A stretch of DNA of 64,000 nucleotides from Acidisphaera sp. S103 (lineage in GTDB: Bacteria > Pseudomonadota > Alphaproteobacteria > Acetobacterales > Acetobacteraceae), in contig NZ_LMUJ01000042.1 of the NCBI RefSeq assembly GCF_009765975.1, positions 152,268 to 216,267 on the forward strand, in the 5' to 3' direction. Position numbers and translations under genes: made by a program. This document shows, one piece after another, positions 10,260-24,030 of the stretch (the stretch's first letter is position 1; each line of letters opens with the position of its first letter). A model generated the notes under the pieces. That model was given only the letters and a program-made list of their open reading frames with translations. It was not told the origin of the DNA and made no database searches.

Positions 10260-12068
10260 CTACAGCCCGCTTGCCAGGATGGCGTCGGCGGTCCGCAGCG
10301 CCAGCGCCGCGATGGTCAGCGTCGGGTTGCCCGTCGCCACTGTCGGGAACGTCCCGCTGCCCACCAGATACAGATTGGGATGATCCCAGGACCGCTGATT
10401 GGCATCGACCACTGAATCCGTCTTGTTCCCGCCCATCCGGTAAGTGCCGACGATGTGCCCGGCTCCGAAATAACCGAACGTTTCGCCCTCGAAGGTGAAC
10501 TGTGCCGGCCCCGGCGCCACCGCGGTGAACTGTTTCGCCCCCAGCTTGGCGAATATCGCATCCGCGGCCCGTTTCGCCGCCACGAACCCCTGCTTGGTGT
10601 AATCTGAGATGTCATACGTCACGCGCGGCCGCGGCAAACCCAGATGATCCACCCGGTCCGACAGCGTCACACGATTGCCCGGTTCCGGCGACTGCTCGAC
10701 CAGGAACCCCAGCCGGAACTGGCGGCTCAGCGCAGCATTCATCGCTGAGGTCAGCGCCTGCCCCGACAGCGCCTTGCCGCCCGGATTCAACCGCGAGACA
10801 TTGCCGCCGTTGATCAGGTCCATCACGGTCGTGTACGGATCGCCGATCGGGAAATTCCAACCTTCATTGCCGATCTCGATCCGGAACGCGGCGCGATCCT
10901 TGCGGAAGATACCATCGCGCAGCGTTTCGATTCCGGCGGTGGACAGCGGCCCGCGATAGCCGAACACCGGTTGCGGCATCTGCGCCCAGGCCAGGTAGAT
11001 CGGGTGATCCATCAGGTTGCGCCCGACCAGGTCACTGCTGTTGGCCACGCCGTTCGGCGTGCGTCCCTCATTCTTCGACATCAGCAGCAGCTTGGGCGTC
11101 TCGATCGCATGTGCGGCCAGGATGAACACCTTCGCCGTGACGCAACCGCGTGCCGTGGCCGGGCCGCCGGCCGTTGCATACTGGATATAGTCGATCTGGC
11201 GGACCTGCCCGGTCCCGTCCACCGCCACGTTGCTGGCAACCGTGTTGCCCCAGATCACCACATTGCCGGTGTCCAACGCCTTGTTCAGCGTCACACTGGG
11301 ATCGTATTTAGCCTGGATCGGACAGATCGGGATGCAGTTGGTGTTGCCCGCGCAGACCCGCCGGTTATCATACGGTTGCGAATTGCGGCCCGCCGGCGTC
11401 GAGGTCACCGTCAGCGCCTCGCCGTCCAGTTCCATCCCATCCACCTTCGCCGCCACCGCCTGGTCCACCAGCGACAGTGGAATCTGCGGCATCGGATAGT
11501 TGTAGTCGGGCGGAAAGGCGATGCCATGATAGGCTTGGTCGGCCTTGTTGGCCGACACCCCGATCGCATGTTCGGCGTCGCCGTACCACCGCTCCAGCTC
11601 GTTGTAGCCGATCGGCCAGTCGACCAGCCGGCCATAGGTGGTTTTCATGGTGAAATCATGCGGCACGAAACGCAGGCTGGTCCCCAGCCAGTGCCGCATC
11701 GTTCCGCCTGAAACACGTTCATAGGTGCTGGCGAACGGCAGTTTCCCCACCTGATCCAGATAAGCCTGCTTCGGATCCTTCCAGTTGTCCCCCAGCGTCA
11801 GCACCGTCGGCCGCGGCGCGTTCATCGTCCCCGGATCGACCAACCCGGTGCTATCCATCAGGGCCGGCGTATACGGGATTTCCGGAACCTTGGCGGTGGC
11901 GAGATAGAATCGCTGCATATAGTCATTGACATTCGGCGGCAGCGGGTCCCCCGCCTCCATGATCAGCACGCGCTTGCCTTTCAGGCCAAGCTGCCACGCG
12001 ATCATCGCGCCCGAGATCCCCGCACCAACGATCACCGCATCGAAAACCTGTGTCTGGGACTGGCTCAT
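10260..12068 (-). CDS. GMC family FAD-dependent oxidoreductase (large subunit of a membrane dehydrogenase)
   Basis: A 602-residue flavoprotein. The Rossmann motif GAGISGAMIAWQL (about 17-29) binds FAD. HIVGTYRMG near the C-terminus carries the GMC active-site His region, followed by the GMC_oxred_C end (HPNLYLVGSGTFPTVATGNPTLTIAALALR). A Cys cluster (CAGNTNCIPICPIQ) resembles that of gluconate and fructose dehydrogenases, where an iron-sulfur cluster is bound. The start at 12068 follows the small subunit by 4 bp. It probably oxidises a sugar or sugar acid in the periplasm and passes electrons to the cytochrome-like partner at 12621-13943; the substrate is not known. Confidence 0.88.
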   Translation of the reverse strand: MSQSQTQVFDAVIVGAGISGAMIAWQLGLKGKRVLIMEAGDPLPPNVNDYMQRFYLATAKVPEIPYTPALMDSTGLVDPGTMNAPRPTVLTLGDNWKDPKQAYLDQVGKLPFASTYERVSGGTMRHWLGTSLRFVPHDFTMKTTYGRLVDWPIGYNELERWYGDAEHAIGVSANKADQAYHGIAFPPDYNYPMPQIPLSLVDQAVAAKVDGMELDGEALTVTSTPAGRNSQPYDNRRVCAGNTNCIPICPIQAKYDPSVTLNKALDTGNVVIWGNTVASNVAVDGTGQVRQIDYIQYATAGGPATARGCVTAKVFILAAHAIETPKLLLMSKNEGRTPNGVANSSDLVGRNLMDHPIYLAWAQMPQPVFGYRGPLSTAGIETLRDGIFRKDRAAFRIEIGNEGWNFPIGDPYTTVMDLINGGNVSRLNPGGKALSGQALTSAMNAALSRQFRLGFLVEQSPEPGNRVTLSDRVDHLGLPRPRVTYDISDYTKQGFVAAKRAADAIFAKLGAKQFTAVAPGPAQFTFEGETFGYFGAGHIVGTYRMGGNKTDSVVDANQRSWDHPNLYLVGSGTFPTVATGNPTLTIAALALRTADAILASGL

Positions 12069-12072
12069 GACA

Positions 12073-12564
12073 TCACGCTCCCGAGCCGATGTAGTCGGTA
12101 AGGGACGGCGGTGCCGCACTCCAGTAGCCGAAGATGTTGGTGCTGAAGCCCATCGGATGTGCCTGCGCGACACTCCAGGCGAAGCCTTTTGTATAGGCGT
12201 TCATCGTGATGACCCGGAACGCGATCGGCGTCGGCGGCGGGTTCGGCCCCGCATACAGCTTCAGGTCGCCAGGATCGTACCAATTGCCCAGATACCACGC
12301 CAACATGATCGCACGAGCCAGAAACCGGACATCGTCGCCCGATTGTTGCAGCACCAGATCGGCCAGTTGTTGCGGCGGCAGCGTCGAATTGTTGGCGACG
12401 ATCGTCAGCAATTGCCCGAACACGGTCGGATCGGCCTGTTGCGCGGTATCGAAATAGGTCTGCTTGATATCGATCGGATCGATCCCCGGCGCCAGGATCC
12501 CGGACGCGATCCCGGTGAGTGCGCTGGAAAGCGTGACGAACTGGTCCATCGGTGAGGCTGCCAT
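12073..12564 (-). CDS. Small subunit of FAD-dependent dehydrogenase (sorbitol/fructose dehydrogenase type)
   Basis: A 163-residue protein. MDQFVTLSSALTGI at the start, the central ARAIMLAWYLGNWYD and the C-terminal AYTKGFAWSVAQAHPMGFSTN fit the small chaperone-like subunit of membrane sorbitol, fructose or gluconate dehydrogenases. In those enzymes it stabilises and exports the flavin subunit through its Tat signal. I see no clear Tat signal here, which is odd. It lies 4 bp upstream of the GMC gene and 56 bp after the haem protein gene, so the three form one operon. Confidence 0.78.
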   Translation of the reverse strand: MAASPMDQFVTLSSALTGIASGILAPGIDPIDIKQTYFDTAQQADPTVFGQLLTIVANNSTLPPQQLADLVLQQSGDDVRFLARAIMLAWYLGNWYDPGDLKLYAGPNPPPTPIAFRVITMNAYTKGFAWSVAQAHPMGFSTNIFGYWSAAPPSLTDYIGSGA

Positions 12565-12620
12565 GATCGGTCTCCCGGTGAGTGTGATCGCCCGAGGGCG
12601 TGAATCACACGAAAAACGCT

Positions 12621-13943
12621 CTATTGCGCACGCTCAAGGATATAGGTGAAGTCGGAGAAATGGCCCGGTTTGTCCGCCGCGTCCTTGTGGCAGTCGATAC
12701 AGGTCGACGACGTCACCGGCACATGTCCCTGGATGTAGGTTTCCATTGTGGTGTTGGCCAGGAACTGTGGCGCCGGCGCCCCCGTCAGGTCCGTTGTGCT
12801 GGTGGGGTCGGTCGGCCATTGCGTGCTGAGCAATTCGTAGTTCGCCCACACCGTCCCCTTCAGGATCGACTGAAACTGTCCGTTCAACGCCACCGTCGCC
12901 GCCGTCAGCGGGGTCACCCGCACGATCTGGCTGTGATAGCCATTGGCGAACGGCTCGACATTCGGGTTCCATGGCCGCGGCGGCGGCGTATTGACCACGC
13001 ACTGGCTCGCCGAACACGCCGGATCGTAGAAATTATACTTGGCCAATAGTTTCTTCGCATCGATATCGGCCTGCGACGGCACGTTGGCGACCTGCTCGAA
13101 CGATGACCACACCCATTGCGGCTCCGCGACGGTCTTATGGCCGACATGCAGGCCGACCAGGACAACCCGAGCGGAACGGCAGGATTCGGCGATGGGTGGA
13201 TTGACGACGGCCTGCTGATACAGCAACGCCGTTTCGGTATGAAAACTTCCGGGATCGTCACCCGGTTCCAGCACCTTCCAGGCGGCCTTCACCATGATGG
13301 CGCCGATCGTCGGCGGCGCATCGACACCGGCCGGAAAATCCACCTTGCCGGTGAACGCGTCCTGCCCGGCTTTACTGTATAACTTGTTAGCCATGATGTA
13401 GTCGAACATCGGCTGGTTGATCAGGATCTCATAATGCACGTAACGGCCTGCCTGATCGATCAGCGGCCCCGTGTCGAACGGCTGGTTGATCGCGGTCAGC
13501 AGGTCCGGCGTCTTGCCCACCATCCGCAGCACGGCAGTGTGCGTGTCATGCGGCACCGATTGGCAGATCGCCGGGATCGGATCGGGCGCGCCCCACGGCG
13601 TGGGGGTCTGCCCCGGCGGCACCATCACCGCGAAGATGTTCTTCCACGACTCCCAGATCGCGGTGGCATCCTTGCCGATCGGCCCAGACCCATCCGCCGG
13701 GGCGTTCAGCGCCAGGAAACTCAACCAGGAAAAGAAATCGAACGCATCCTGCAGGTGCACCAAATTGAACGGCGCCACCGCTTCGACGGCGCACGGCAGC
13801 CCGCTGGTCAGCAGCGCCGGCGTGATCGGGGTTCCTTGCGGGGTCGTATTGCAAACCACCGGACTGGTTTGCGCTGAGGCCGGAGACACCCCCAGGATTG
13901 CCACAAGACCGACGACAGTCGCCAGCGTTACGCGCTTTCTCAT
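12621..13943 (-). CDS. Exported monohaem cytochrome-like partner of the GMC dehydrogenase
   Basis: A 440-residue exported protein with a Sec signal peptide (MRKRVTLATVVGLVAILGVSPASA). It has a single c-type haem motif, CIDCH, at 415-419, 22 residues from the end. The other 380 or so residues hold several isolated Cys and no further CxxCH. The usual cytochrome subunit of gluconate, sorbitol and fructose dehydrogenases has three haems spread along its length, so this is a different architecture in the same slot. It is the first gene of the operon. Inferred role: electron acceptor of the flavin subunit. The large N-terminal domain is not recognised. Confidence 0.75.
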   Translation of the reverse strand: MRKRVTLATVVGLVAILGVSPASAQTSPVVCNTTPQGTPITPALLTSGLPCAVEAVAPFNLVHLQDAFDFFSWLSFLALNAPADGSGPIGKDATAIWESWKNIFAVMVPPGQTPTPWGAPDPIPAICQSVPHDTHTAVLRMVGKTPDLLTAINQPFDTGPLIDQAGRYVHYEILINQPMFDYIMANKLYSKAGQDAFTGKVDFPAGVDAPPTIGAIMVKAAWKVLEPGDDPGSFHTETALLYQQAVVNPPIAESCRSARVVLVGLHVGHKTVAEPQWVWSSFEQVANVPSQADIDAKKLLAKYNFYDPACSASQCVVNTPPPRPWNPNVEPFANGYHSQIVRVTPLTAATVALNGQFQSILKGTVWANYELLSTQWPTDPTSTTDLTGAPAPQFLANTTMETYIQGHVPVTSSTCIDCHKDAADKPGHFSDFTYILERAQ

Positions 13944-14070: not shown

Positions 14071-14853
14071 CTATGCCTCTCGCCGTTGCGACGCATGCCA
14101 CGGCACGCACCGTCGTTCCAGCAGCGTCATCCCCCAGAACAACACGATCCCCGCCGCCCCCAGCAGAATATTGGCGGCGAAAATCTGCGCGGTTTCAAAC
14201 GTCCCCTGCGCCGTCAGAATAATATAGCCCAGACCGTGATCGGACGCGACGAACTCACCAACGATCGTGCCCACCAGCGCCAGTGAAATACCCACCTTCA
14301 TGCCCGCGAAAATACTGGGCAGCGCCGTCGGCAACCGGATGCGCCAGAACTGAGCCAACTGGCTCGCCCGCATGCTGCTCGCCAAGTCTAGCATTTCCTT
14401 CGACACCGACTTCAGCCCCAGCACGCTGTCGATGACGATGGGAAAGAACGCGATCAGAAAGGCGATGGCAATCTTCGGCCCGTACCCGGTCCCCAGCCAG
14501 ATCACGAACAGCGGGGCGATCGCCACCTTCGGCACGCTGTTCAACGCCGCGATCAGCGCATACAGCGTGTTCTCCAGCAGCTTCACCTCGACGATCAGGA
14601 TCGCCAGCAATATTCCGACGACCACCGCCAGCCCGAAGCCGATCAGCATCGTCAACATGGTGTACAGCCCCTCCTGCATGAACCAGCCTGGCTGCGCCGC
14701 CAGTGCCTCCAAAATCGCGCTCGGGGCCGGCAGGATCACCTGGCGCACGTGAAAAGCCTCGACCAGCACCTGCCACACGACAAACATCAGGATGATGGTC
14801 GCCGTGGGCGCGCACATGTCCCAGGCCCGGCGCAGGCGGCTGACGTCATTCAT
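14071..14853 (-). CDS. ABC transporter permease (SsuC/TauC type)
   Basis: A 260-residue inner-membrane permease with about six helices. The cytoplasmic EAA-loop region around ASQLAQFWRIRLPTALPSIFAGMKVGI contacts the ATPase. The family imports sulfonates, nitrate, taurine or thiamine precursors. Its start overlaps the ATPase stop by 8 bp. With the ATPase and the NMT1-like binding protein it makes a complete importer. The substrate is probably linked to the GntR-regulated operon at 17706-19802. Confidence 0.9.
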   Translation of the reverse strand: MNDVSRLRRAWDMCAPTATIILMFVVWQVLVEAFHVRQVILPAPSAILEALAAQPGWFMQEGLYTMLTMLIGFGLAVVVGILLAILIVEVKLLENTLYALIAALNSVPKVAIAPLFVIWLGTGYGPKIAIAFLIAFFPIVIDSVLGLKSVSKEMLDLASSMRASQLAQFWRIRLPTALPSIFAGMKVGISLALVGTIVGEFVASDHGLGYIILTAQGTFETAQIFAANILLGAAGIVLFWGMTLLERRCVPWHASQRREA

Positions 14854-15676
14854 CTTTCAACAGCCCCATGTCACCGAACAATGCGCGTATCTGCCCGCAG
14901 TACAGCGCGAATTCCGGCATTTCCCGCACCATCATCCGGCGCGGCCGAGGCAAATCGATCGTCAGCGTCATCGCGATCCGGCCCGGACGCGGGCTCATCA
15001 CCACCACCCGGTCCGACAGGAACACCGCTTCCCCGATCGAGTGCGTCACGAACAGGATCGTTCGCCGCGACGCCGACCAGATCTTCTGCAGTTCCAGGTT
15101 CATCTGGTCGCGGGTCAGCGCATCCAGCGCCCCGAACGGCTCATCCATCAGCAACAGATCCGGGTTCGCCAGCAGCGCCCTGCAGATCGCCGCACGTTGC
15201 CGCATGCCGCCGGACAGTTGCGCCGGAAACGCTTTCTCAAACCCCTTCAGGCCGAACAGATCGAGCAGTTCGTGCGCCCGCTCCATATACCGGCCACGCG
15301 GTTCACCGCGGAAATCCACCTGCAGGAACATGTTGTCGAGGATGGACCGCCATTCCAGCAGCACGTCGCGCTGGAACACCACGCCCATGTTCGCCGGCGG
15401 CTTGCGCACCGGTTCCCCATGCACGCGGATTTCCCCGCCGGTGGGACGCTCCAGCCCGGCCACGCAACGCAGCAGGGTGCTTTTGCCGCAGCCGCTGGGT
15501 CCAAGGATGCTGAGGAATTCCCCTTCCCGCACCGACAGCGACACCTGATCCAGCGCCAGGACACCCTTGGCGCCATATTGCTTGCTGACGCCGGTGGCCT
15601 CGATATGGACCGCGGCCGGCGGCGCAGCGGCCACCTTTGGTGCCAGGCTCAGGGCTTCCAGCACGCTTGCGTTCAT
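14846..15676 (-). CDS. ABC transporter ATP-binding protein (SsuB/TauB type)
   Basis: A 276-residue ATPase. Walker A GPSGCGKST, signature LSGGMRQR, Walker B LLLMDEPFGALD and the switch His in FVTHSIGEA are all intact. It energises the importer with the permease (8-bp overlap) and the binding protein (4-bp overlap). The operon order is binding protein, ATPase, permease, read leftward from the divergent promoter at 16720-16934. Confidence 0.93.
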   Translation of the reverse strand: MNASVLEALSLAPKVAAAPPAAVHIEATGVSKQYGAKGVLALDQVSLSVREGEFLSILGPSGCGKSTLLRCVAGLERPTGGEIRVHGEPVRKPPANMGVVFQRDVLLEWRSILDNMFLQVDFRGEPRGRYMERAHELLDLFGLKGFEKAFPAQLSGGMRQRAAICRALLANPDLLLMDEPFGALDALTRDQMNLELQKIWSASRRTILFVTHSIGEAVFLSDRVVVMSPRPGRIAMTLTIDLPRPRRMMVREMPEFALYCGQIRALFGDMGLLKDE

Positions 15677-16719
15677 GCCTTCGTTCCGACTGTACGAGCA
15701 TACAGCGACGAATCGAACAAATCGTTGGAATAACAGTCCGTCGCCGCCAGCCCCTTGGGGATCAGATCGGCCGATGCCAGCGTCTTCATGGCGTCAGTCC
15801 AGTCGACAGGCGCCATCTTGCCCACCGGGGCGTCCTTGGTCGCATCGGTCTTGAAGAATGAAATGAAACTGTTGACCTGCCCCAGCATCGCGGCGGCGTT
15901 CAGCTTGGCGTTGGGACGGGCGGTGTGGATCGCCGCCACGCTTTCTTCCTGGTGACCCGCCGCGACATACGCCCATGCACCGTCGGTGACGCTGGCAAAA
16001 CGGGTCAGCGCCGCCTGTTTCGCCTTGATGTCGGAATCCCGTGCGAACAAGCCGTAACTTGGCATGCGCAGCCCGGCATCCGCCAGCATGATCGCCCTCG
16101 ACTTGCGCTGCGTTTCCACCACGGGAACGAAAAACGGAATGGATGAAAACGCCCCATCCAGCTTGCCGGTCAGATACGCCGCCAGCTTCGTCGCGCCATC
16201 CAGGTTGACCAGTTCGACATCGTCACGGGTCAGCCCGCCGGCCTTCAGGAACAGTCCCAGGAACGGCGTCTCCAGCGAACTCGCGGTGTAGCCGACACGC
16301 TTGCCGCGCAGATCCTTGATCGCACGGATGGGGGAATCGACCGGTATCATCACGCCGATGTCGCTGGTGCGCACGTAGGACGCGATGGCCTTCAGGTTCA
16401 GCCCCTTGCCGCGCGCGATGATCATCGACGACAGCGCCGCATGTCCCACATCCACGTCGTCACCGCCGCCGACGATCTGCACCGTCTGGTTGGTGCCGTT
16501 GCCGTCATCCACCGTGACATCCAGGCCGGCGTCGCGATACCACCCCTTGACCGAGGCCAGATGGATGGCGGCATGTGCGCCCCAAGGCGTCCAATCCAAT
16601 CGAATCCGCAATGGTTCGCCCGAACCGGCACGTGTTCGCGTGGCGACGAACGGGGCGGCCAAAGGGGCAGCGAGCAAACCGAAGCCGACAGCACGGCGTC
16701 CGAGGCGGAGGGAGGACAT
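15673..16719 (-). CDS. ABC transporter substrate-binding protein (NMT1/THI5-like, SsuA family)
   Basis: A 348-residue periplasmic binding protein with a twin-arginine-like signal (GRRAVGFGLLAAPLAAPFVA). The mature start LRIRLDWTPWGAHAAIHLASVKGWYRDAGLDVTV is the NMT1/THI5 signature, used by pyrimidine (thiamine precursor), riboflavin, nitrate and sulfonate importers. The ATG at 16719 has AGGAG upstream; the longer frame to 16821 runs through the TGTATACA operator, so it is rejected. It is the first gene of the leftward operon, divergent from a GntR regulator. The ligand is unknown. Confidence 0.9.
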   Translation of the reverse strand: MSSLRLGRRAVGFGLLAAPLAAPFVATRTRAGSGEPLRIRLDWTPWGAHAAIHLASVKGWYRDAGLDVTVDDGNGTNQTVQIVGGGDDVDVGHAALSSMIIARGKGLNLKAIASYVRTSDIGVMIPVDSPIRAIKDLRGKRVGYTASSLETPFLGLFLKAGGLTRDDVELVNLDGATKLAAYLTGKLDGAFSSIPFFVPVVETQRKSRAIMLADAGLRMPSYGLFARDSDIKAKQAALTRFASVTDGAWAYVAAGHQEESVAAIHTARPNAKLNAAAMLGQVNSFISFFKTDATKDAPVGKMAPVDWTDAMKTLASADLIPKGLAATDCYSNDLFDSSLYARTVGTKA

Positions 16720-16766
16720 GAAGGCCGATCTCCTGATGCTGGCCCGTCGGGCCTGATTTCGGCTAC

Positions 16767-16774
16767 TGTATACA
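16767..16774. promoter_or_regulatory. GntR-type operator TGTATACA in front of the ABC transporter
   Basis: A perfect palindrome TGTATACA lies 48 bp upstream of the binding-protein start. Read on the minus strand it continues as GTATACAGTAGCCG, and the copy at 17660 reads GTATACAGTATCCG. FadR/VanR-type (FCD) GntR regulators are known to bind such TTGTATACAA-like sites. A degenerate third copy, TGTATCCA, lies at 16881-16888, between this site and the GntR start. Confidence 0.72.
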
Positions 16775-16934
16775 AAATCACGGAGCCGCCAATCTTTTTC
16801 TGCATGGCATCGTGAATTCAACCCGAGATTGCGATATGATAAGACCGACAGTGCCTGACGGACAGCAAAGTTCTGTTTTTTGTATCCAAAACTGCCTATA
16901 TGCTGGGCAACGCTGACACTGGAGACCGACGCCC

Positions 16935-17639
16935 GTGGCTGATTCCGACTCCCTCACCCAAGTCCGGCCGCGCCGCATCGGCGCCGATCATGCCCCGTTG
17001 CGCGACAAGGTCGCCGAGGAAATACGCGCCGCCATCCTCTCCGGCCAGTTCAAGCCCGGCGAACGCCTGGTCGAGGATCGCCTCGCCGAGGAATTCGGCG
17101 TCTCCCGCAATCCGGTGCGGGAAGCGATGCGGACGCTCGCCTCCGAGGGGTTGATCGAAGTCACCGCTCGGCGCGGTGCGGTGGTTGCGTCGCTGTCGCC
17201 GCAAGAAGCCGAGGAATTGCTGGAAGTGCGCGCCACCCTGGAAGGCGCCAACGCCCGCCTCGCCGCCCGCCGCCACGACCCCGAGGTGCTGGAACAGTTA
17301 AAAAGCGTTCTGATCAGAGGCAACGCGGCGATCGAGGCGGCACGTCTCGCCGAACTCTCCGACCTCAACATCGCCTTCCACGACCATCTGGCGCGGGCGG
17401 GCCGCAACCGGGTCCTGGTGGATCTGATGAAGACCCTGCGCGACCGATCCGGCCCGCTGTTCCAGGGCGTCGGCATCGAATTCGCTCGGGAATCCTGGGC
17501 CGAACACGCCAGCATCCTGCGCGCGGTGATCGCCGGCGATCCGGAACTGGCCTCGATGCTCGCCTACCGGCACGTCCTGAACGCCGGCGCCCGCCGTCCG
17601 CCCGCGGCAGCCGAGGACGCCACCTCCCCGCAGGAATAA
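16935..17639 (+). CDS. GntR family transcriptional regulator, FCD (FadR/VanR) subfamily
   Basis: A 234-residue regulator. The winged helix (about 20-90) has the family motif GQFKPGERLVEDRLAEEFGVSRNPVREAMRTLASEGLI. The C-terminal FCD domain (about 95-215) has the metal-binding pattern with D/N-x3-H (DLNIAFHDHLARAGRN) and a late His in WAEHASILRAV. The start is GTG at 16935 with GGAG at 16921. It is divergent from the importer and upstream of the di-iron/ferredoxin operon; both have TGTATACA in their leaders, so it is probably the local repressor of the set and of itself. The effector is likely the imported carboxylate or its product. Confidence 0.9.
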   Translation: MADSDSLTQVRPRRIGADHAPLRDKVAEEIRAAILSGQFKPGERLVEDRLAEEFGVSRNPVREAMRTLASEGLIEVTARRGAVVASLSPQEAEELLEVRATLEGANARLAARRHDPEVLEQLKSVLIRGNAAIEAARLAELSDLNIAFHDHLARAGRNRVLVDLMKTLRDRSGPLFQGVGIEFARESWAEHASILRAVIAGDPELASMLAYRHVLNAGARRPPAAAEDATSPQE

Positions 17640-17659
17640 GGCTTGACGTTCATGGACAT

Positions 17660-17667
17660 TGTATACA
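17660..17667. promoter_or_regulatory. GntR-type operator TGTATACA in front of the di-iron/ferredoxin operon
   Basis: The same palindrome as at 16767, placed 21 bp after the gntR stop and 38 bp before the ATG at 17706. Extended identity with the first site (GTATACAGTA-n-CCG) makes chance unlikely. Its position shows that the downstream operon has its own promoter and that the longer open frame from 17643 is not the start. Confidence 0.72.
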
Positions 17668-17705
17668 GTATCCGTTCATCAAACCCGACCGAACAGGAGG
17701 CTCGC

Positions 17706-18437
17706 ATGCCCGCATTGATGGATCCCGTGGAATTCCGCGGCGCTCTCGAAACCGCCATCAAAGGCAAAAGCGCCAATAAATCGCCCTTCAGCATCGCCTG
17801 GGCCGAAGGCAAGCTGTCCCGCACCCACCTGTGCCGCTGGGCGGAAAATCATTACCATTATGTCGGCCCGTTCGCGGATTACCTGGCCTACGTCTACGCC
17901 CGCATGCCGGACCAACTGACGGACGCCAAGGACTTCCTGCTCGCCAACATGTATGAGGAAGAGATCGGCGGCGACCGCCACACCGACCTGCTGATCCGCT
18001 TTGCCGAATCCTGTGGAACCACCGCCGACCGGGTCAAAGACCCCGACAACATGTCCCCCACCACCCGCGGCCTGCAAAGCTGGTGCTATGCCGTCGCCAT
18101 GCGCGAAGACCCGATCGTCGCCGTCGCCGGTCTTGTCGTCGGCCTGGAATCGCAGGTGCCCTCCATCTATCGCCGCCAGACCCCGACGTTACGGGAAAAA
18201 TATGGCTTCACCGATGAAGAAGTCGAATTCTTCGACCTGCACATCGTTTCCGATGAAATCCATGGCGAACGTGGCTTCCAGATCGTCCTTGAACACGCCA
18301 AGACCGTCGAACTGCAACAGCGCTGCCTGAAAATCTGCGAAGTCGGCGCCCAGATGCGGCTGTTGTACACCACGGCGCTGTATCACGACTATGTCGAGGC
18401 GGAACTGCCGCTCAGCGCCCTGCCCCTCGCCGCCTGA
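17706..18437 (+). CDS. Haem-oxygenase-like di-iron oxidase (PqqC/TenA superfamily)
   Basis: A 243-residue all-helical cytoplasmic protein. A complete set of di-iron ligands in the HDO pattern is visible: E85-x6-H92 (EEIGGDRH), E148 (VVGLESQ), and H179-x3-D183-x2-H186 (HIVSDEIHG). This is the arrangement known from UndA and BesC, which use O2 to cleave or oxidise small substrates. PqqC and TenA share the fold but not this metal set, and no TenA-type catalytic Cys is evident. The start at 17706 has AGGAGG at 17695-17700. Two ferredoxins follow, the expected reductants for a di-iron oxygenase. The substrate is unknown. Confidence 0.82.
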   Translation: MPALMDPVEFRGALETAIKGKSANKSPFSIAWAEGKLSRTHLCRWAENHYHYVGPFADYLAYVYARMPDQLTDAKDFLLANMYEEEIGGDRHTDLLIRFAESCGTTADRVKDPDNMSPTTRGLQSWCYAVAMREDPIVAVAGLVVGLESQVPSIYRRQTPTLREKYGFTDEEVEFFDLHIVSDEIHGERGFQIVLEHAKTVELQQRCLKICEVGAQMRLLYTTALYHDYVEAELPLSALPLAA

Positions 18438-18444
18438 CAGCGCA

Positions 18445-18750
18445 ATGCCCAACGTTGTTTTCCACAAGCTTGGTGTCACCTATGCCGAAGACGTTCCGGA
18501 AGACACCAACCTTGTGGTCAACACGGCCATCAAACGATTCCCGTTCCCACACCTGACCTTCGGCTGCGGCATGGGCAAATGCGCGCGATGCGCCTGCCGG
18601 GTTCTCAGCGGCGCCGAACATCTGCCCGAACCCAACTGGAAAGAACAACAACGACTGGGTCCACGCCTGGAACAAGGCTACCGGCTGGTTTGCCAGCTCT
18701 GGCTCAAGCACGACATCGAACTCGCCCAGGACGCTCCCGTTCGGCCATGA
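18445..18750 (+). CDS. [2Fe-2S] ferredoxin, first of two
   Basis: A 101-residue plant-type ferredoxin. The cluster ligands are C41-x4-C46-x2-C49 (FGCGMGKCARC) and C83 (RLVCQ), and there is an extra Cys51. It starts 7 bp after the di-iron gene and overlaps the next start by 4 bases (ATGA). It probably carries electrons to the di-iron enzyme. It differs from the second ferredoxin at 19042, so the operon has two distinct electron carriers. Confidence 0.87.
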   Translation: MPNVVFHKLGVTYAEDVPEDTNLVVNTAIKRFPFPHLTFGCGMGKCARCACRVLSGAEHLPEPNWKEQQRLGPRLEQGYRLVCQLWLKHDIELAQDAPVRP

Positions 18751-19037
18751 CCTACGTGATCCTGACCAGCAAACCGGGAGTTTTCCATACGGAACCGGAC
18801 GATGCGGTCCGCCCCTGCGAAACCTATGACTATGTTTTCCATGGCCAGCGAAAAGCCCGCTTCATCATTGCCGAATTGCTGCGGCCGACCAAACTGCGCA
18901 TCGTCGACGAAACCCCGCCCGAGGTCACCACGCTCGTTCCTTCCAAGTTTCTGCCGGGCTTCTCCACCATCGAAGCTGCCCGCCGCGAACTCCAGCAACT
19001 CTCCGGCCGCGACATGGTATTGGAAAGACTGCCATAA
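18747..19037 (+). CDS. Unknown small protein inside the ferredoxin operon
   Basis: A 96-residue protein, MTYVILTSKPG at the start, with one Cys (C24) and a C-terminal helical part (STIEAARRELQQLSG). There is no signal or membrane segment. It is translationally coupled to the first ferredoxin (ATGA overlap) and followed 4 bp later by the second. I do not recognise the family. Its fixed place between two ferredoxins suggests a subunit or assembly partner of the di-iron system; this is inference only. Confidence 0.7.
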   Translation: MTYVILTSKPGVFHTEPDDAVRPCETYDYVFHGQRKARFIIAELLRPTKLRIVDETPPEVTTLVPSKFLPGFSTIEAARRELQQLSGRDMVLERLP

Positions 19038-19041
19038 CCGC

Positions 19042-19332
19042 ATGATCACGATCACCTTCGTAACCAACGACATGAAGTCGGTCACCGCGCCGGAAAACAG
19101 CAACCTGCTGCGTATATCCTTGCGCGAAAAAGGCGGCATCCCGTTCAAGTGCGGTGCCGGCCTGTGCGGCACCTGCAAGTGCCATTTCGACGCCGGACTG
19201 GAACACGCCGACGCCATCAAGCCGAAGGAACGAAGGCATCTCACAGATGCCGATTTCGCCAACGGTTACCGCATGGCCTGCCAGACCTTCGTCAACGGTG
19301 ACGTCAGCATCTCCTGGAAAACACAAGCATGA
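19042..19332 (+). CDS. [2Fe-2S] ferredoxin, second of two
   Basis: A 96-residue plant-type ferredoxin. Ligands C37-x4-C42-x2-C45 (FKCGAGLCGTCKC) and C80 (MACQ) are intact, with an extra Cys47. The sequence is closer to classical oxygenase ferredoxins than the first one is. It overlaps the GlcG/HbpS gene by 4 bases. No reductase gene is in the operon, so an outside ferredoxin reductase must supply electrons. Confidence 0.88.
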   Translation: MITITFVTNDMKSVTAPENSNLLRISLREKGGIPFKCGAGLCGTCKCHFDAGLEHADAIKPKERRHLTDADFANGYRMACQTFVNGDVSISWKTQA

Positions 19333-19802
19333 AAACCGCCCTGAAACTGGAAACCAGCGAGGCCCGCCTGATGGTCGCCGCCGCCGTCGCCAAGGCGGCG
19401 GAACTCGGCGTGCCCGAAACCGTCTGCATCACCGATGAAGGTGGCTTCCCCATCATCATGGAGCGCATGGACGGTGCCCGCATCACCGGCCCGCAAATCG
19501 CCTGGAACAAGGCCTTTACCGCCGCTGGCCACAAACGGTCCACCCACCTGTTCAACCGCCCCCCCAACGGCCCTGCCCTGCCCGGCAACGAGGCCTACGG
19601 CATCCAGTTCAGCTTCGACGGAAAATTCGCTGTCTTCGTCGGCGGATTCCCGATCGTGGTGGATGGCCAGGTGGTCGGCGGAGTCGGCCTCAGCGGCGGC
19701 AACGGCGAACAAGATACGCTGTGCGGCGTTGCCGCGCTGGCGGCGCTGCAGGAAGCCCTGAACGGCCACGACGTTCTGGTCGCCGCAGACATCAAGACAT
19801 GA
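19329..19802 (+). CDS. GlcG/HbpS family protein (DUF336)
   Basis: A 157-residue protein of the GlcG/HbpS family: ARLMVAAAVAKAAELGVPETVCITDEGG, then MERMDGA..TGPQIAWNKAFTAA, and the closing GGVGLSGGNGEQD. Members bind haem or corrinoids, or accompany glycolate and diol metabolism; the biochemical role is often unknown. It is the last gene of the operon (ATGA overlap with ferredoxin 2). No signal peptide is seen, so it should be cytoplasmic here. Confidence 0.85.
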   Translation: MKTALKLETSEARLMVAAAVAKAAELGVPETVCITDEGGFPIIMERMDGARITGPQIAWNKAFTAAGHKRSTHLFNRPPNGPALPGNEAYGIQFSFDGKFAVFVGGFPIVVDGQVVGGVGLSGGNGEQDTLCGVAALAALQEALNGHDVLVAADIKT

Positions 19803-19967: not shown

Positions 19968-22900
19968 TTACTCCGCCGCCATCATCACCGGCGCTGGCTG
20001 CGCGAACGCCGCCAGTAACTCCGCCCGCCGAACCTCTGCCTTCGCTCGGTTTGCGTCCTTCACCGGCCCAAATCCCCTGATCTGGTCAGGCAATTCCGCC
20101 AACGCCACCGCCGTGTCGAAATTCGCTGCCGTCAGCCGGTCCAGCACGCCGCGCAAATCCGCGGTATACTGTGCAATCAATGCCCGCTCCTGCCGCCGCT
20201 CCACCTGGTACCCGAACGGATCCATCACCGACCCCCGCACCAGCCTGCCATGCCGCAATACCTTGAACAGCGGCAATCCCAGCCAGCCTGGAATAACAAT
20301 CTTCCGCCGCCGTCCCGTCGCCTTGTCGATGCCCTGCCACAACGGCGGAGACATATGGAACGCCGGCTTCTCACCATACGTCGCGCTCGCGTGCAGCCTG
20401 GCGACCTCGTATTCATCCTTGTAGGCCATGACGCGATACAGCCCCTCGGCCGCCGCGCGAGACAACCGTCCCGGCGCCCCAGCCACGGCGGTTTCACGCG
20501 CAACCACATCCTTCATCAGCACCTGGAACCGCCGAGCGTAACGCTTCGACTGATACGCCGTCAGCGCCGCCGTCCGATGCGCGATCAGCCCGTCCAGATC
20601 GGCCGGAGGCCCCTCGACCACGCCTTCCAGCACGTCCTTCATCAACCCCGGCTGCTCCGCCAGGATCCGCCCCCACAGGAACGCCCGCTTGTTCAGTTTG
20701 ACCGCCGCGCCGTTCAACTCGATCGCCCGCAGGATCGAAGCCTCGCCCACCGGCACCAGCCCGCGCTGCCACGCCATCCCCAGCAGCATCGTGTTCATCG
20801 CCTGGGCGTTGCCGAACAGCCGTTCCGCCAGCCGCACCCCGTGCAGCCAAATCGAGCGGCCCTTGTTCGTAGCCTTCTCGATCGTCCGCCTATGCAACGC
20901 CGCGTCGATCGACAGCGCCGCATTGCGCTTGAAGTCCGCCGTCGCCGCCAGATCCAGGTTGCCGATCACCACCGAGGACCGCGCATTCCGCTCCAGCACC
21001 CCCGCGGCGCAGCCAACAGCCAAATCCGCCGCCAGCATCACATCGGCGCTGCCCAGCGGAATGCGCACCACATCCAACGCCGCCTCATCCGCCGCGATCT
21101 GCACATGCGCCACCACCGCGCCGTTCTTCTGCGCCAGCCCAGTGAAATCCAACGTCTTGACCGCTCGGCCTTCCAGATGCGCCGCCATCGCCAGGATCGC
21201 GCCGGAGGTCACGATCCCGCCCCCGCCGATCCCCGCGAACAACCCGCGCCACACGCCCAGCGCCGGCACGACCGGCATCGGCAACCCGGCCGCCAATTCG
21301 GCCTCCCGATCCTGCCAATGCGTATCCGCATCCGGCGCCGCCGGCGGCCCCGCCACGGTCACGAAGCTCGGGCAGAACCCTTTCAGGCACGACAGATCGA
21401 CGTTGCAACTGGTCGGATTGATCCGCCGTTTCCGCCCAAGCTCCGTCTCCACCGGCTCGATCGCGATGCAAGCCGACTGCACCGAACAGTCGCCGCAGTT
21501 CTCACATACCGATTCGTTGATCACGACATGCCGCGCCGGCTGCACCATCGAGCCACGCTTCCGCCGCCGCCGCTTCTCCGTCGCGCACACCTGGTCGTAG
21601 ATCAGCACCGACGGCCCTTCGAAGTCGCGCAGTGCCGTCTGCACCGCCTCCAACTCCTCCCGCGTATGCCGCGTCACCCCCGCCGGCAACGCCGAGGCCG
21701 GCGGCAACCGCTCCGCCTCATCAGCTACAATCACAATCCGCTTGACGCCTTCCGCCGCCAACTGCGCCGCGATCGACGGCACCGTCGGCGCGCCCTCCGT
21801 CGGTTGCCCGCCTGTCATGGCGACCGCATCATTGAACAACAGCTTGTAGGTAATCCGGGTCTTCGCCGCGACCGCCTGGCGGATCGCCATGCTACCCGAG
21901 TGCTGGTACGTTCCGTCGCCGAGGTTGGCGAACATATGCTTCATCTCGGTAAAGCTGGACAGCCCGACGAACGGCGCGCCCTCGCCGCCCATGTGCGTAA
22001 ACGTCCGCGTATTCGGCCCATCATCCATGGCCATGAAATGGCAGCCGATGCCGGCGCTCGAGAAGCTGCCGTCCGGCAGTTTGGTGGAGGTGGCATGCGG
22101 ACAGCCCGCGCAGAACGCCGGAATTCGCCGCAACAGCCCATCCGGGCGTTCCGCCGCCACCGGCATCGGCGCCGCCGGCAAATTCAGCCCGGCCTGCCCC
22201 AGGAACGAGGTCAGCCCGCCGGCGACGCTCTCCGGAGACAACTCCATCAGCGGCGACAGCAACGGCGCACCACGCCCGTCGGTCTTGCCGCTAACCTCCG
22301 GCCGTTCGTCCGCCGGCAGGTTGTACAGCGCGTCGCGGATCTGGCTTTCGACGAAGCTGCGTTTCTCCTCGATCACCAGCAACTGCCGCTTGCTGCGAGC
22401 GAAGTCTCGCAGCCCCTCGGTCTCCAGCGGCCAGGTCATGCCGACTTTGTAGACTGCGATCTGAGGATGCCGATCCAAACCAAGCCGCCGCAGCGCATGC
22501 ATGGTGTCCTCATGCGCCTTACCCACGGTCACTAGCCCGATGGTCGCGTCAGGCGAGCCGCTGATCAGCCGGTCGATCCGGTTGGCACGCGCCCAGGCCA
22601 GCACCGCCGGCATCCGTTCCTCGATCATCCGCCGTTCCAGTTCGGCTCTGTCGCCGGGGAAATGCAGCGTGTGGTCGTAATTCAGCCCGTGCGGCGGCAG
22701 CGCGATGTCCGGGGTCACGAACCGTCGCTCCGACGGCACGATCGCCGTCGACGCCTGCTCCATCGTCTCCGCCGTCGTCTTCATCGCCACCCAGACGCCG
22801 GCGAAGCGGGACAGCGCCCAGCCTGCCAGCCCCAGGTCGATCACATCCTGCACCGATGCCGGGTTGAGCACCGGGATGAAGCAGTTCTGGAACACATATT

Positions 22901-23390
22901 CGGTCTGGTGCGGATAGGTGGACGAATGCGCCCCATGATCGTCGCCGGAGATCGCCAGAACGCCGCCGAATTTGTGCGTGCCGCTCATGTTGGCGCAGTG
23001 GAATGCGTCACCGCTGCGGTCCACGCCCGGACCCTTGCCGTACCACATGCCGTAGACGCCATCGACCCGTTTGCCGGGGAAGGCGTCGATCTCCTGCGTG
23101 CCATACAGCATCGTGGCCGCCAGGTCCTCGTTCACCCCCGGCTCGAACCGGATGTCATGCGCCGCCATCAGCTTCTTCTGGACCCATAGCTCCCGGTCCA
23201 ACCCGCCCAGCGGCGATCCCCGATAGCCCGATACCAGCGCCGCGGTCTTCAACCCGGCTGCCATGTCGAGTCGCCGCTGTTCCAGCAGCAGCCGCAGCAA
23301 CGCCTGGATGCCCGTCAGCAAAACCGGCTGATCGAGGTCGGCAAACCGCGACTCCAGGGTAATGCCGCCGTGTCCGAGACCGATATCCAT
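19968..23390 (-). CDS. Indolepyruvate:ferredoxin oxidoreductase, fused alpha-beta form
   Basis: An 1140-residue enzyme that oxidatively decarboxylates aryl 2-oxoacids to acyl-CoA with ferredoxin as acceptor, in aromatic amino acid breakdown. The N-terminal pyrimidine-binding region has ALVSGYRGSPLGGLDREL. The TPP-binding part includes GIGCHFMAMDD and FNDAVAMTGGQPTEGAPT. The Fe-S segment CENCGDCSVQSACIAIEP plus SCNVDLSCLKGFC binds clusters, and the C-terminal gamma-like domain starts near GIGGGGIVTSGAILAMA. Length is right for the fused proteobacterial type. An Lrp/AsnC regulator is divergent from it. The ferredoxin partner is not adjacent. Confidence 0.92.
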   Translation of the reverse strand: MDIGLGHGGITLESRFADLDQPVLLTGIQALLRLLLEQRRLDMAAGLKTAALVSGYRGSPLGGLDRELWVQKKLMAAHDIRFEPGVNEDLAATMLYGTQEIDAFPGKRVDGVYGMWYGKGPGVDRSGDAFHCANMSGTHKFGGVLAISGDDHGAHSSTYPHQTEYVFQNCFIPVLNPASVQDVIDLGLAGWALSRFAGVWVAMKTTAETMEQASTAIVPSERRFVTPDIALPPHGLNYDHTLHFPGDRAELERRMIEERMPAVLAWARANRIDRLISGSPDATIGLVTVGKAHEDTMHALRRLGLDRHPQIAVYKVGMTWPLETEGLRDFARSKRQLLVIEEKRSFVESQIRDALYNLPADERPEVSGKTDGRGAPLLSPLMELSPESVAGGLTSFLGQAGLNLPAAPMPVAAERPDGLLRRIPAFCAGCPHATSTKLPDGSFSSAGIGCHFMAMDDGPNTRTFTHMGGEGAPFVGLSSFTEMKHMFANLGDGTYQHSGSMAIRQAVAAKTRITYKLLFNDAVAMTGGQPTEGAPTVPSIAAQLAAEGVKRIVIVADEAERLPPASALPAGVTRHTREELEAVQTALRDFEGPSVLIYDQVCATEKRRRRKRGSMVQPARHVVINESVCENCGDCSVQSACIAIEPVETELGRKRRINPTSCNVDLSCLKGFCPSFVTVAGPPAAPDADTHWQDREAELAAGLPMPVVPALGVWRGLFAGIGGGGIVTSGAILAMAAHLEGRAVKTLDFTGLAQKNGAVVAHVQIAADEAALDVVRIPLGSADVMLAADLAVGCAAGVLERNARSSVVIGNLDLAATADFKRNAALSIDAALHRRTIEKATNKGRSIWLHGVRLAERLFGNAQAMNTMLLGMAWQRGLVPVGEASILRAIELNGAAVKLNKRAFLWGRILAEQPGLMKDVLEGVVEGPPADLDGLIAHRTAALTAYQSKRYARRFQVLMKDVVARETAVAGAPGRLSRAAAEGLYRVMAYKDEYEVARLHASATYGEKPAFHMSPPLWQGIDKATGRRRKIVIPGWLGLPLFKVLRHGRLVRGSVMDPFGYQVERRQERALIAQYTADLRGVLDRLTAANFDTAVALAELPDQIRGFGPVKDANRAKAEVRRAELLAAFAQPAPVMMAAE

Positions 23391-23556: not shown

Positions 23557-24030
23557 ATGGAACTAGATCGCCTCGATCTGGCCATACTGGATCACCTGCA
23601 GGCCAACGGCCGAGCCACGGCGCAGGATTTGGGCGACGCGGCGCATCTGTCGGCGTCTCCGTCCCATCGGCGGCAGAAGCTGCTGGAGGAAGCCGGGGTC
23701 ATCACCCGCTATGTCGCGCTGCTGGACCAGGACAAGGTCGGGCTGCCGGTGAATGTCTTCGTCACCGTCAAGCTCGCCAACCACAAGGACGAAACCCTGA
23801 TCGGTTTCGAACGCGCCATCGAAGCCTGTCCCGAGGTGATGGAAATGTACGAGATGACCGGTGCCACCGACTACCTGCTGCGCGTCGTCGCCGCCGACGT
23901 CGCGTCGTATGAGGCATTCCTGCGCGGCCGGCTGACACACATCCCGGGGGTGCAGTCGTTCGAATCAGCCCTGGCGCTGAAGCGGGTCGTCTACCGGACC
24001 AATCTGCCGTTGCGGCAGGGCGGCCGCTAA
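23557..24030 (+). CDS. Lrp/AsnC family transcriptional regulator
   Basis: A 157-residue protein. The N-terminal helix-turn-helix is LDRLDLAILDHLQANGRATAQDLGDAAHLSASPSHRRQKLLEEAG (about 3-48). The C-terminal RAM/ACT-like ligand domain contains MYEMTGATDYLLRVVAAD. It is divergent from the indolepyruvate oxidoreductase, so it probably controls that gene in response to an aromatic amino acid; this is inferred from position. Confidence 0.9.
   Translation: MELDRLDLAILDHLQANGRATAQDLGDAAHLSASPSHRRQKLLEEAGVITRYVALLDQDKVGLPVNVFVTVKLANHKDETLIGFERAIEACPEVMEMYEMTGATDYLLRVVAADVASYEAFLRGRLTHIPGVQSFESALALKRVVYRTNLPLRQGGR

Follow-up and report, generated by a model that had tools for sequence, protein, structure and literature searches.

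What would hold together, in one run of bacterial genes, a di-iron oxidase, two different ferredoxins, an unrecognised small protein and a GlcG/HbpS-like protein? The question is raised by a 64-kb stretch of Acidisphaera sp. S103 DNA (contig NZ_LMUJ01000042.1, positions 152,268 to 216,267), which we call the window, and in which the gene for a haem-oxygenase-like di-iron oxidase (HDO) opens a set of five genes, here called the cassette. Comparison with related loci showed that the gene set is real, coherent and widespread, being present in many soil bacteria. Our preferred reading, to which we give a probability of roughly 0.6, is that these genes make up a catabolic module under regulation, with a multicomponent HDO at its centre. 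Support for this reading comes from a conserved triplet of genes, from the co-occurrence of the HDO with the small protein and from a palindrome that stands before genes other than that of the HDO. An earlier note on this DNA had described the five genes as an operon, and coordinates and family scans agree in bearing it out: from HDO to GlcG the genes are joined by a 7-bp gap, a 4-bp overlap, a 4-bp gap and a 4-bp overlap, all below 10 bp.

17706-18437, plus strand: HDO, 243 residues (Pfam Haem_oxygenas_2, 130.2 bits)
18445-18750, plus strand: ferredoxin 1, [2Fe-2S] (Pfam Fer2, 31.6 bits)
18747-19037, plus strand: 96-residue protein, proposed effector or coupling component (no Pfam or NCBIfam match; unrecognised in the earlier note too)
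19042-19332, plus strand: ferredoxin 2, [2Fe-2S] (Pfam Fer2, 46.4 bits)
19329-19802, plus strand: GlcG/HbpS-like (DUF336) protein (Pfam HbpS-like, 116.6 bits against a gathering score of 25)

Judged by its alignments, the HDO is of the di-iron type and is neither PqqC nor a CADD-type synthase. The earlier note had seen all six expected metal ligands in it, and indeed E85, H92, E148, H179, D183 and H186 fall on the six ligands of CADD in the alignment, are invariant in 32 aligned HDO sequences (window copy included) and lie in ligand motifs found in 89 of 89 called HDO copies. The alignment thus gives the protein the set of three histidines and three carboxylates (3H/3C) of the HDO superfamily, and its structural model has the all-helical haem-oxygenase-like fold of that superfamily. 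The model, built from 27 close sequences and hence of moderate worth (mean predicted local distance difference test score, pLDDT, 81.9), matched PqqC (E 1.5e-8), CADD (2.5e-8) and UndA (2.3e-5) in Foldseek, with HrmI, FlcD and BesC also among the matches. The nearest PDB sequences are CADD (63.2 bits), the 4-aminobenzoate synthase 9pj4 (60.9 bits) and a PqqC (39.5 bits). An assignment to PqqC fails, as PqqC when aligned shares not one of the six ligands and the NCBIfam score is 47.4 bits against a cut-off of 240. An assignment to the CADD-type p-aminobenzoate synthases fails as well (95.3 bits against 200). CADD (CT610) and the other HDO 4-aminobenzoate synthases have the same six ligands, but Tyr27 and Lys152 of CADD fall on S29 and Q158, which are invariant in the 32 sequences. 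In the portion of the literature available to us, these two CADD residues are described as the sacrificial tyrosine and the amine-donor lysine (PMC11965152). The earlier note had staked its proposal on two points, that homologues of the oxidase would not prove to be plain PqqC or TenA and that the gene order would recur in other genomes, and neither turned out against it: by the ligand test the oxidase is not PqqC, and the order does recur.

Recurrence of the gene set was assessed in a scan of genome_contigs covering 84,980 species, which returned 493 pattern stretches, 457 of them confirmed relatives. The best 80 of these 457 were taken and make up 79 loci (L019-L097; 84-90% identity in the best segment), so that figures given per 79 loci hold for the nearest relatives. 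Genes were called in 84 sources (L014-L018, L020-L097 and the window, without L019), whereas the counts over 79 loci take in L019; L019 and L038 are not extra evidence, since the same-genus genomes to which these contigs belong are represented by L017 and L018 as well. Ferredoxin 1, the 96-residue protein and ferredoxin 2 stand in this fixed order on one strand in 77 of the 79 loci, the HDO gene lies directly before them on the same strand in 60, and eight loci (L019, L030, L038, L043, L047, L069, L091 and L097) have the exact order of the window; together these figures argue that the gene set is not due to chance. GlcG is present in 75 loci and a relative of the GntR regulator in 76, and the six-gene core of HDO, triplet, GlcG and GntR is found together in 72. 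In L074, L075, L089 and L090 the core is incomplete, with the gap falling at the end of a contig or close to it, or the contig being short. Outside the eight loci with the window's exact order, GlcG or HDO stands apart from the ferredoxin block or is divergent from it, and the surroundings of the cassette are reshuffled into several layouts while the locus retains its members. What the earlier note had called a fixed set is thus a set that recurs in many genomes, though mostly not in one fixed five-gene order.

The 79 loci include 19 from Achromobacter, 16 from Cupriavidus, 15 from Bradyrhizobium, four each from Variovorax and Aminobacter, and one or two from each of the others; Kaistia and Acetobacteraceae are among the hosts. 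Caballeronia and Cupriavidus replicons in a plasmid collection also bear the cassette, with an HDO 86-87% identical to the window copy, and none of nine pattern stretches in viral contigs codes for a relative. L034, L044, L045, L048 and L054 each have two HDO copies; in Aminobacter and Kaistia the ferredoxin triplet accompanies one of the two, GlcG and the reductase the other.

The HDO and the 96-residue protein also keep company at the level of genomes. With presence set at E<=1e-60 for the HDO and E<=1e-6 for the 96-residue protein, the two occurred in the same 15 of 146 genomes from the genus of a Bradyrhizobium host (L020) and in the same 21 of 150 genomes from the family of a Cupriavidus host (L051). 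This concordance shows a unit and not a mechanism, because linkage and co-transfer contribute to it. Across 385 genomes of the window's class, the 96-residue protein was found only in the window's own genome, and ten others have more distant HDOs of at most 203.8 bits. In a phylum sample of 398 genomes, an HDO at E<=1e-40 was present in five, namely the window's genome, three more with scores over 500 bits, and the distant G100. The G100 HDO (43% identity; L118:6929-9650) is followed by GlcG and GntR, with a divergent gene for a 272-residue Rieske [2Fe-2S] protein, and neither the ferredoxins nor the 96-residue protein appeared in the 17 kb read; this layout suggests that the partnership with GlcG may predate the ferredoxin set. 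Near another HDO, that of G063 (36% identity), the 12 kb read contained no further core gene, the sole match being one of 29% to an MFS protein.

The palindrome, with the core ATACTGTATACAGTAT, precedes oxidase, transporter, aldehyde dehydrogenase and amidase genes and likely marks a regulon. In the window, the regulator gene and the operator-like sites are placed as follows.

16761-16780, importer/GntR interval: operator-like palindrome with core TTGTATACAG at 16766-16775, core on the minus strand (matrix 18.4 bits)
16875-16894, no strand assigned: weaker operator-like site upstream of GntR (matrix 15.3 bits)
16935-17639, plus strand: GntR/FCD regulator (Pfam GntR 75.6 bits, FCD 90.6 bits)
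17654-17673, no strand assigned: operator-like palindrome upstream of HDO with core TTGTATACAG at 17659-17668 (matrix 22.9 bits)

Exact copies of TTGTATACAG occur in the window twice only, before the importer and before the HDO; one mismatch gives three matches, a number reached by none of 100 shuffles. Among the relatives, 78 of 84 HDO copies (79 loci) have GTATAC in the 300 bp upstream, where 0.068 per copy would be expected. In the six copies that lack it (L030, L043, L047, L069, L089 and L090, which we take to be Acetobacteraceae) the HDO follows the gene for a twelve-transmembrane (12-TM) transporter, and in L030 palindrome sites stand before that transporter gene. A matrix with the consensus GAATACTGTATACAGTATTC, built from 91 distinct HDO-upstream sites, scored 15 bits or more at 228 sites in 1.58 Mb, compared with a mean of 4.9 and a maximum of 16 for 40 column-permuted matrices. 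Of the 226 sites in gene-called loci, 102 precede HDO and five lie inside a gene or have no gene downstream. Other sites stand before the 12-TM transporter (40 loci), a TauE-like gene (30), aldehyde dehydrogenase (18), amidase (12, in Cupriavidus), GntR (8), a small open reading frame (ORF; 5), an OCD family gene (4), ferredoxin 1 (1) and the window's binding protein (1); a second NMT1-type importer has the palindrome before it in five of the five loci that encode it, and the remaining sites precede four other clusters, in one or two loci each. The presence of the GntR gene points to its product as the factor acting at the palindrome. The earlier note had both GntR and the importer divergent from the operon, which holds for the importer alone, on the minus strand; GntR lies on the plus strand, co-directional with HDO and 66 bp upstream of it. 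The small ORF, of 58-62 residues, lies behind GntR and belongs to a cluster of ten loci (L039:11408-11593), five of them with the palindrome in front; the one copy scanned had no Pfam match.

Both ferredoxins keep the CX4CX2C...C motif, ferredoxin 1 in 82 of 82 called copies and ferredoxin 2 in 80 of 80, and ferredoxin 2 matches the YfaE model weakly (15.6 bits against a cut-off of 75). The 96-residue protein remains between them in 77 of the 79 loci despite having diverged to 36-70% identity with the window copy (44 sequences). Relaxing the Pfam threshold to E<=5 brought no match for it, searching the PDB sequences with a profile brought a single one, at E 1.1, and the 44 sequences share no conserved cysteine. 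Its dN/dS (nonsynonymous to synonymous substitution rate ratio) is 0.31 against L018, the comparison with L017 being saturated at synonymous sites. The model, from 39 aligned sequences, is mostly beta with one helix (mean pLDDT 94.7), and none of its 582 Foldseek matches in the PDB at E<=10 reached E<=0.001. Set beside the small redox-free effectors of multicomponent monooxygenases, the protein is constant and free of a conserved cysteine, but has no fold match; the best-fitting reading is that it would serve as an effector or docking protein. The nearest PDB sequences to GlcG are 2a2l (OrfY), 5cx7 (a PduO domain), NahX and EfgA. EfgA, OrfY, NahX and the PduO C-domain belong to the same DUF336 family as GlcG; EfgA is a formaldehyde sensor, as stated in the part of the paper available to us (PMC8153426).

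Divergent from the operon lie the genes for an NMT1-type ABC importer.

15673-16719, minus strand: NMT1/THI5-like substrate-binding protein (Pfam NMT1, 123.7 bits)
14846-15676, minus strand: importer ATPase (Pfam ABC_tran, 118.5 bits; 83% identity in same-genus genome G005)
14071-14853, minus strand: importer permease, BPD_transp_1 (Pfam, 87.1 bits)

The importer is complete, as the earlier note had it, with binding protein, ATPase and permease, but it extends to 14071 and so beyond the interval then assigned to the system. An 85% identical copy of the permease adjoins the cassette in G005. Among PDB sequences the binding protein has its best matches, none of them strong (52.6-31.5 bits), in 3qsl (a putative exported protein), 3ix1 (a formyl-aminopyrimidine binder) and THI5 chains, and is nearest, weakly, to pyrimidine-type binders. 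An importer of the window's type was found in only one of the 79 loci, and as a general part of the cassette it has to be dropped; we keep it as a host-specific part because it shares the palindrome with the HDO. The claim that the importer is dedicated is not supported in its original form: the shared operator-like palindrome backs it, but 63 loci have the unrelated 12-TM transporter instead. This protein, detected by tblastn, is possibly an unclassified transporter family; copies (e.g. L014:2947-4560 and L079:13644-15176) are about 505-537 residues long with 11-13 hydrophobic segments in twelve copies, and two copies scanned had no Pfam match at E<=5. TauE-like genes occur in 42 loci and OCD family genes in 27.

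Genes that may serve further steps accompany the cassette in many hosts. A BenC-like reductase is encoded in 46 of the 79 loci; the L014 copy, the only one scanned, matched BenC best (217 bits against a cut-off of 430). An aldehyde dehydrogenase is encoded in 66 loci, and for six of six scanned, from six loci, two 2-oxoglutarate-semialdehyde models ranked first, all below the NCBIfam equivalog cut-offs (best 464.8-559.7 bits against 750-770); two types, with about 45% identity between them, are represented among those scanned. The hydrolases found beside the cassette vary by lineage (isochorismatase type, gamma-glutamyltransferase, esterases, alpha/beta hydrolase), mostly without a site of their own, and give only a hint that amides or esters may be entry forms. 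The isochorismatase-type gene lies behind the second NMT1 importer, with its own palindrome in none of five loci and one in front of the importer; the gamma-glutamyltransferase genes have the palindrome in one of three cases, L045. The GMC oxidoreductase of nine Bradyrhizobium loci and the esterase of Aminobacter were considered as members and rejected, with no palindrome in front in nine of nine and three of three cases. As genes mostly lacking the palindrome, all four kinds are neighbours at most. A pyrrole-2-carboxylate route, prompted by the type of dehydrogenase, found no support in the open-access literature searched and is no more than a guess.

Our results are most consistent with an inducible catabolic oxygenase module that yields a semialdehyde product. 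In this model, the GntR/FCD protein would repress from the palindrome until the substrate or an intermediate releases it. Entry of the substrate would be through an NMT1-type ABC importer (in the window and G005, with another kind in Variovorax and Candidimonas) or through the 12-TM transporter, and in some hosts the amidase would first set it free. Electrons would pass from NADH to the BenC-like flavin/[2Fe-2S] reductase, where present, then to the two ferredoxins and the di-iron site; in the window's genome another reductase would feed the ferredoxins. The 96-residue protein may gate or dock the electron-transfer complex, by analogy with the effectors of ferritin-type multicomponent monooxygenases. 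The product of O2 attack would be a carbonyl or semialdehyde; GlcG may bind or shield this product, and an aldehyde dehydrogenase nearest the 2-oxoglutarate-semialdehyde type, absent from the window's cassette, would lead it into central metabolism. Substrate, exact reaction and the role of GlcG are the least certain elements; our guess for the substrate is a small nitrogen-containing carboxylate or its amide.

Several observations weigh against the catabolic module. Each of the two samples used for co-occurrence includes its centre genome, which was picked for having the cassette. Because the matrix derives from sites upstream of HDO, only genes other than HDO test it independently, and the loci with such sites are mostly from Achromobacter and Cupriavidus. 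The exact five-gene order holds in only eight of 79 loci, and over 20.7 kb L055 lacks the triplet, L091 lacks GntR and L094 lacks both GlcG and GntR. The window's genome yielded no near copy of the 12-TM transporter, an empty search that alone shows nothing, though tblastn detected the family in 63 loci; for the BenC-like reductase, too, nothing close turned up there, the best match being 38% over 85 residues. No aldehyde dehydrogenase is encoded in the window's cassette, the rest of that genome not having been searched for one, and in nine Acetobacteraceae-type loci, some on short contigs, reductase and dehydrogenase are both missing from the stretch. The putative effector role of the 96-residue protein is drawn solely from its constancy, and HDOs studied so far are said, in the available part of a 2026 review, to need no protein effector (PMC13108848).

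Other explanations can account for some of these facts. The small plant-type ferredoxins in the operon, one of them weakly YfaE-like, could have the task that YfaE has in maintaining the di-iron cluster of class I ribonucleotide reductase: the HDO would use O2 and substrate alone, and the ferredoxins with the 96-residue protein would re-reduce or assemble a labile cluster. We regard this as unlikely, since two different ferredoxins and, in 46 loci, a BenC-like reductase look like a chain for turnover. HDO clusters are nevertheless often labile, according to the same part of the review (PMC13108848). It is improbable, too, that the genes are a travelling block kept by transfer, with members such as GlcG and one ferredoxin in unrelated roles; the patchy presence and the 86-87% identity of HDOs between the window's Acetobacteraceae host and the Caballeronia and Cupriavidus replicons fit this idea, but the same members stay through reshuffled layouts and palindromes mark pieces that have become separated.

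That the system handles haem or iron is suggested by the name of the fold, the supply of ferredoxins and the HbpS-like family name; given the six conserved non-haem di-iron ligands and the kinds of partner that the palindrome marks (aldehyde dehydrogenase, amidase, importers of small molecules), we rate it very improbable. Hardly any weight falls on cofactor biosynthesis by a PqqC-like protein or a CADD-like p-aminobenzoate synthase. CADD and PqqC are the best relatives in the PDB by sequence and fold, but the six ligands that PqqC does not share, the replaced CADD tyrosine and lysine and the low NCBIfam scores described above speak against such a role, as does a presence as patchy as 15 of 146 and 21 of 150 genomes.

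If the catabolic module is accepted, its relation to known systems can be considered. Soluble methane monooxygenase (sMMO) and the phenol/toluene-type multicomponent monooxygenases combine a di-iron oxygenase with a ferredoxin, a reductase and a small effector protein. The cassette resembles them in its set of components, but their hydroxylase is ferritin-like and the cassette's haem-oxygenase-like, so it is not a classical bacterial multicomponent monooxygenase. UndA, BesC and HrmI share the haem-oxygenase fold with the cassette HDO by structure comparison, at 15-17% identity; to our knowledge none comes with a comparable fixed multi-protein cassette, and we take BesC to have the 3H/3C ligand set. 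For UndA and HrmI, the available part of the review gives this set, and it counts about a dozen functionally validated HDOs, presented in the setting of natural product biosynthesis (PMC13108848).

The view that known HDOs act alone or with general reductants, held in the earlier note, has to be given up: MboA, the HDO of mangotoxin formation, has a dedicated flavin/[2Fe-2S] reductase, MboB, published in 2026, and MboAB may be the first characterised pair of an HDO and a dedicated redox partner, according to those parts of the report that are available (PMC13185094). Like the cassette, MboA/MboB unites an HDO having 3H/3C ligands with an operon-encoded redox partner, and the BenC-like reductase is of the kind described for MboB. 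Unlike the cassette, MboA/MboB is biosynthetic, and the same parts describe one partner and mention no separate ferredoxins, 96-residue protein or GlcG. A dedicated partner for the HDO is found here as well, as two ferredoxins in 77 loci and a BenC-like reductase in 46, the latter without a close copy in the window's genome.

MboAB limits the novelty of the cassette; its two-ferredoxin, small-protein and catabolic aspects are without precedent in the open-access literature searched, in which we recognised no paper describing the gene set (weak evidence of absence). By its gene content the cassette looks like an undescribed way to break down a small imported compound, and there is a plausible chance of a new class of multicomponent oxygenase. 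More tentatively, and with somewhat less confidence than doubt, we propose that it may be a second, independently evolved bacterial multicomponent di-iron oxygenase, on the haem-oxygenase fold, and the first HDO to be catabolic, to draw electrons from two dedicated ferredoxins and to require an effector, the 96-residue protein; it would turn a small carboxylate, nitrogen-containing or heteroaromatic, or the amide of one, into a product like 2-oxoglutarate semialdehyde. If true, a widespread catabolic HDO with its own electron chain and a candidate effector would alter the statements that HDOs act in natural product biosynthesis and need no effector. The palindrome-marked set offers handles for the substrate: the operator sequence, two kinds of importer, the amidase and the dehydrogenase.

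Two further groups of genes flank the locus in the window. Adjoining the importer, 10260-13943 encodes a GMC oxidoreductase with a small subunit, FAD-SLDH-like by a match that stays below the cut-off, and a 440-residue protein with a CXXCH motif; no palindrome site of at least 8 bits stands in front of these genes, and a 12.5-bit site lies inside the 440-residue gene. Convergent with the operon, 19968-23390 holds an ORF of 1140 residues, by eye presumably an indolepyruvate ferredoxin oxidoreductase fusion; further on, at 23557-24030, lies an ORF of 157 residues that we take, again by eye, to be Lrp-like.

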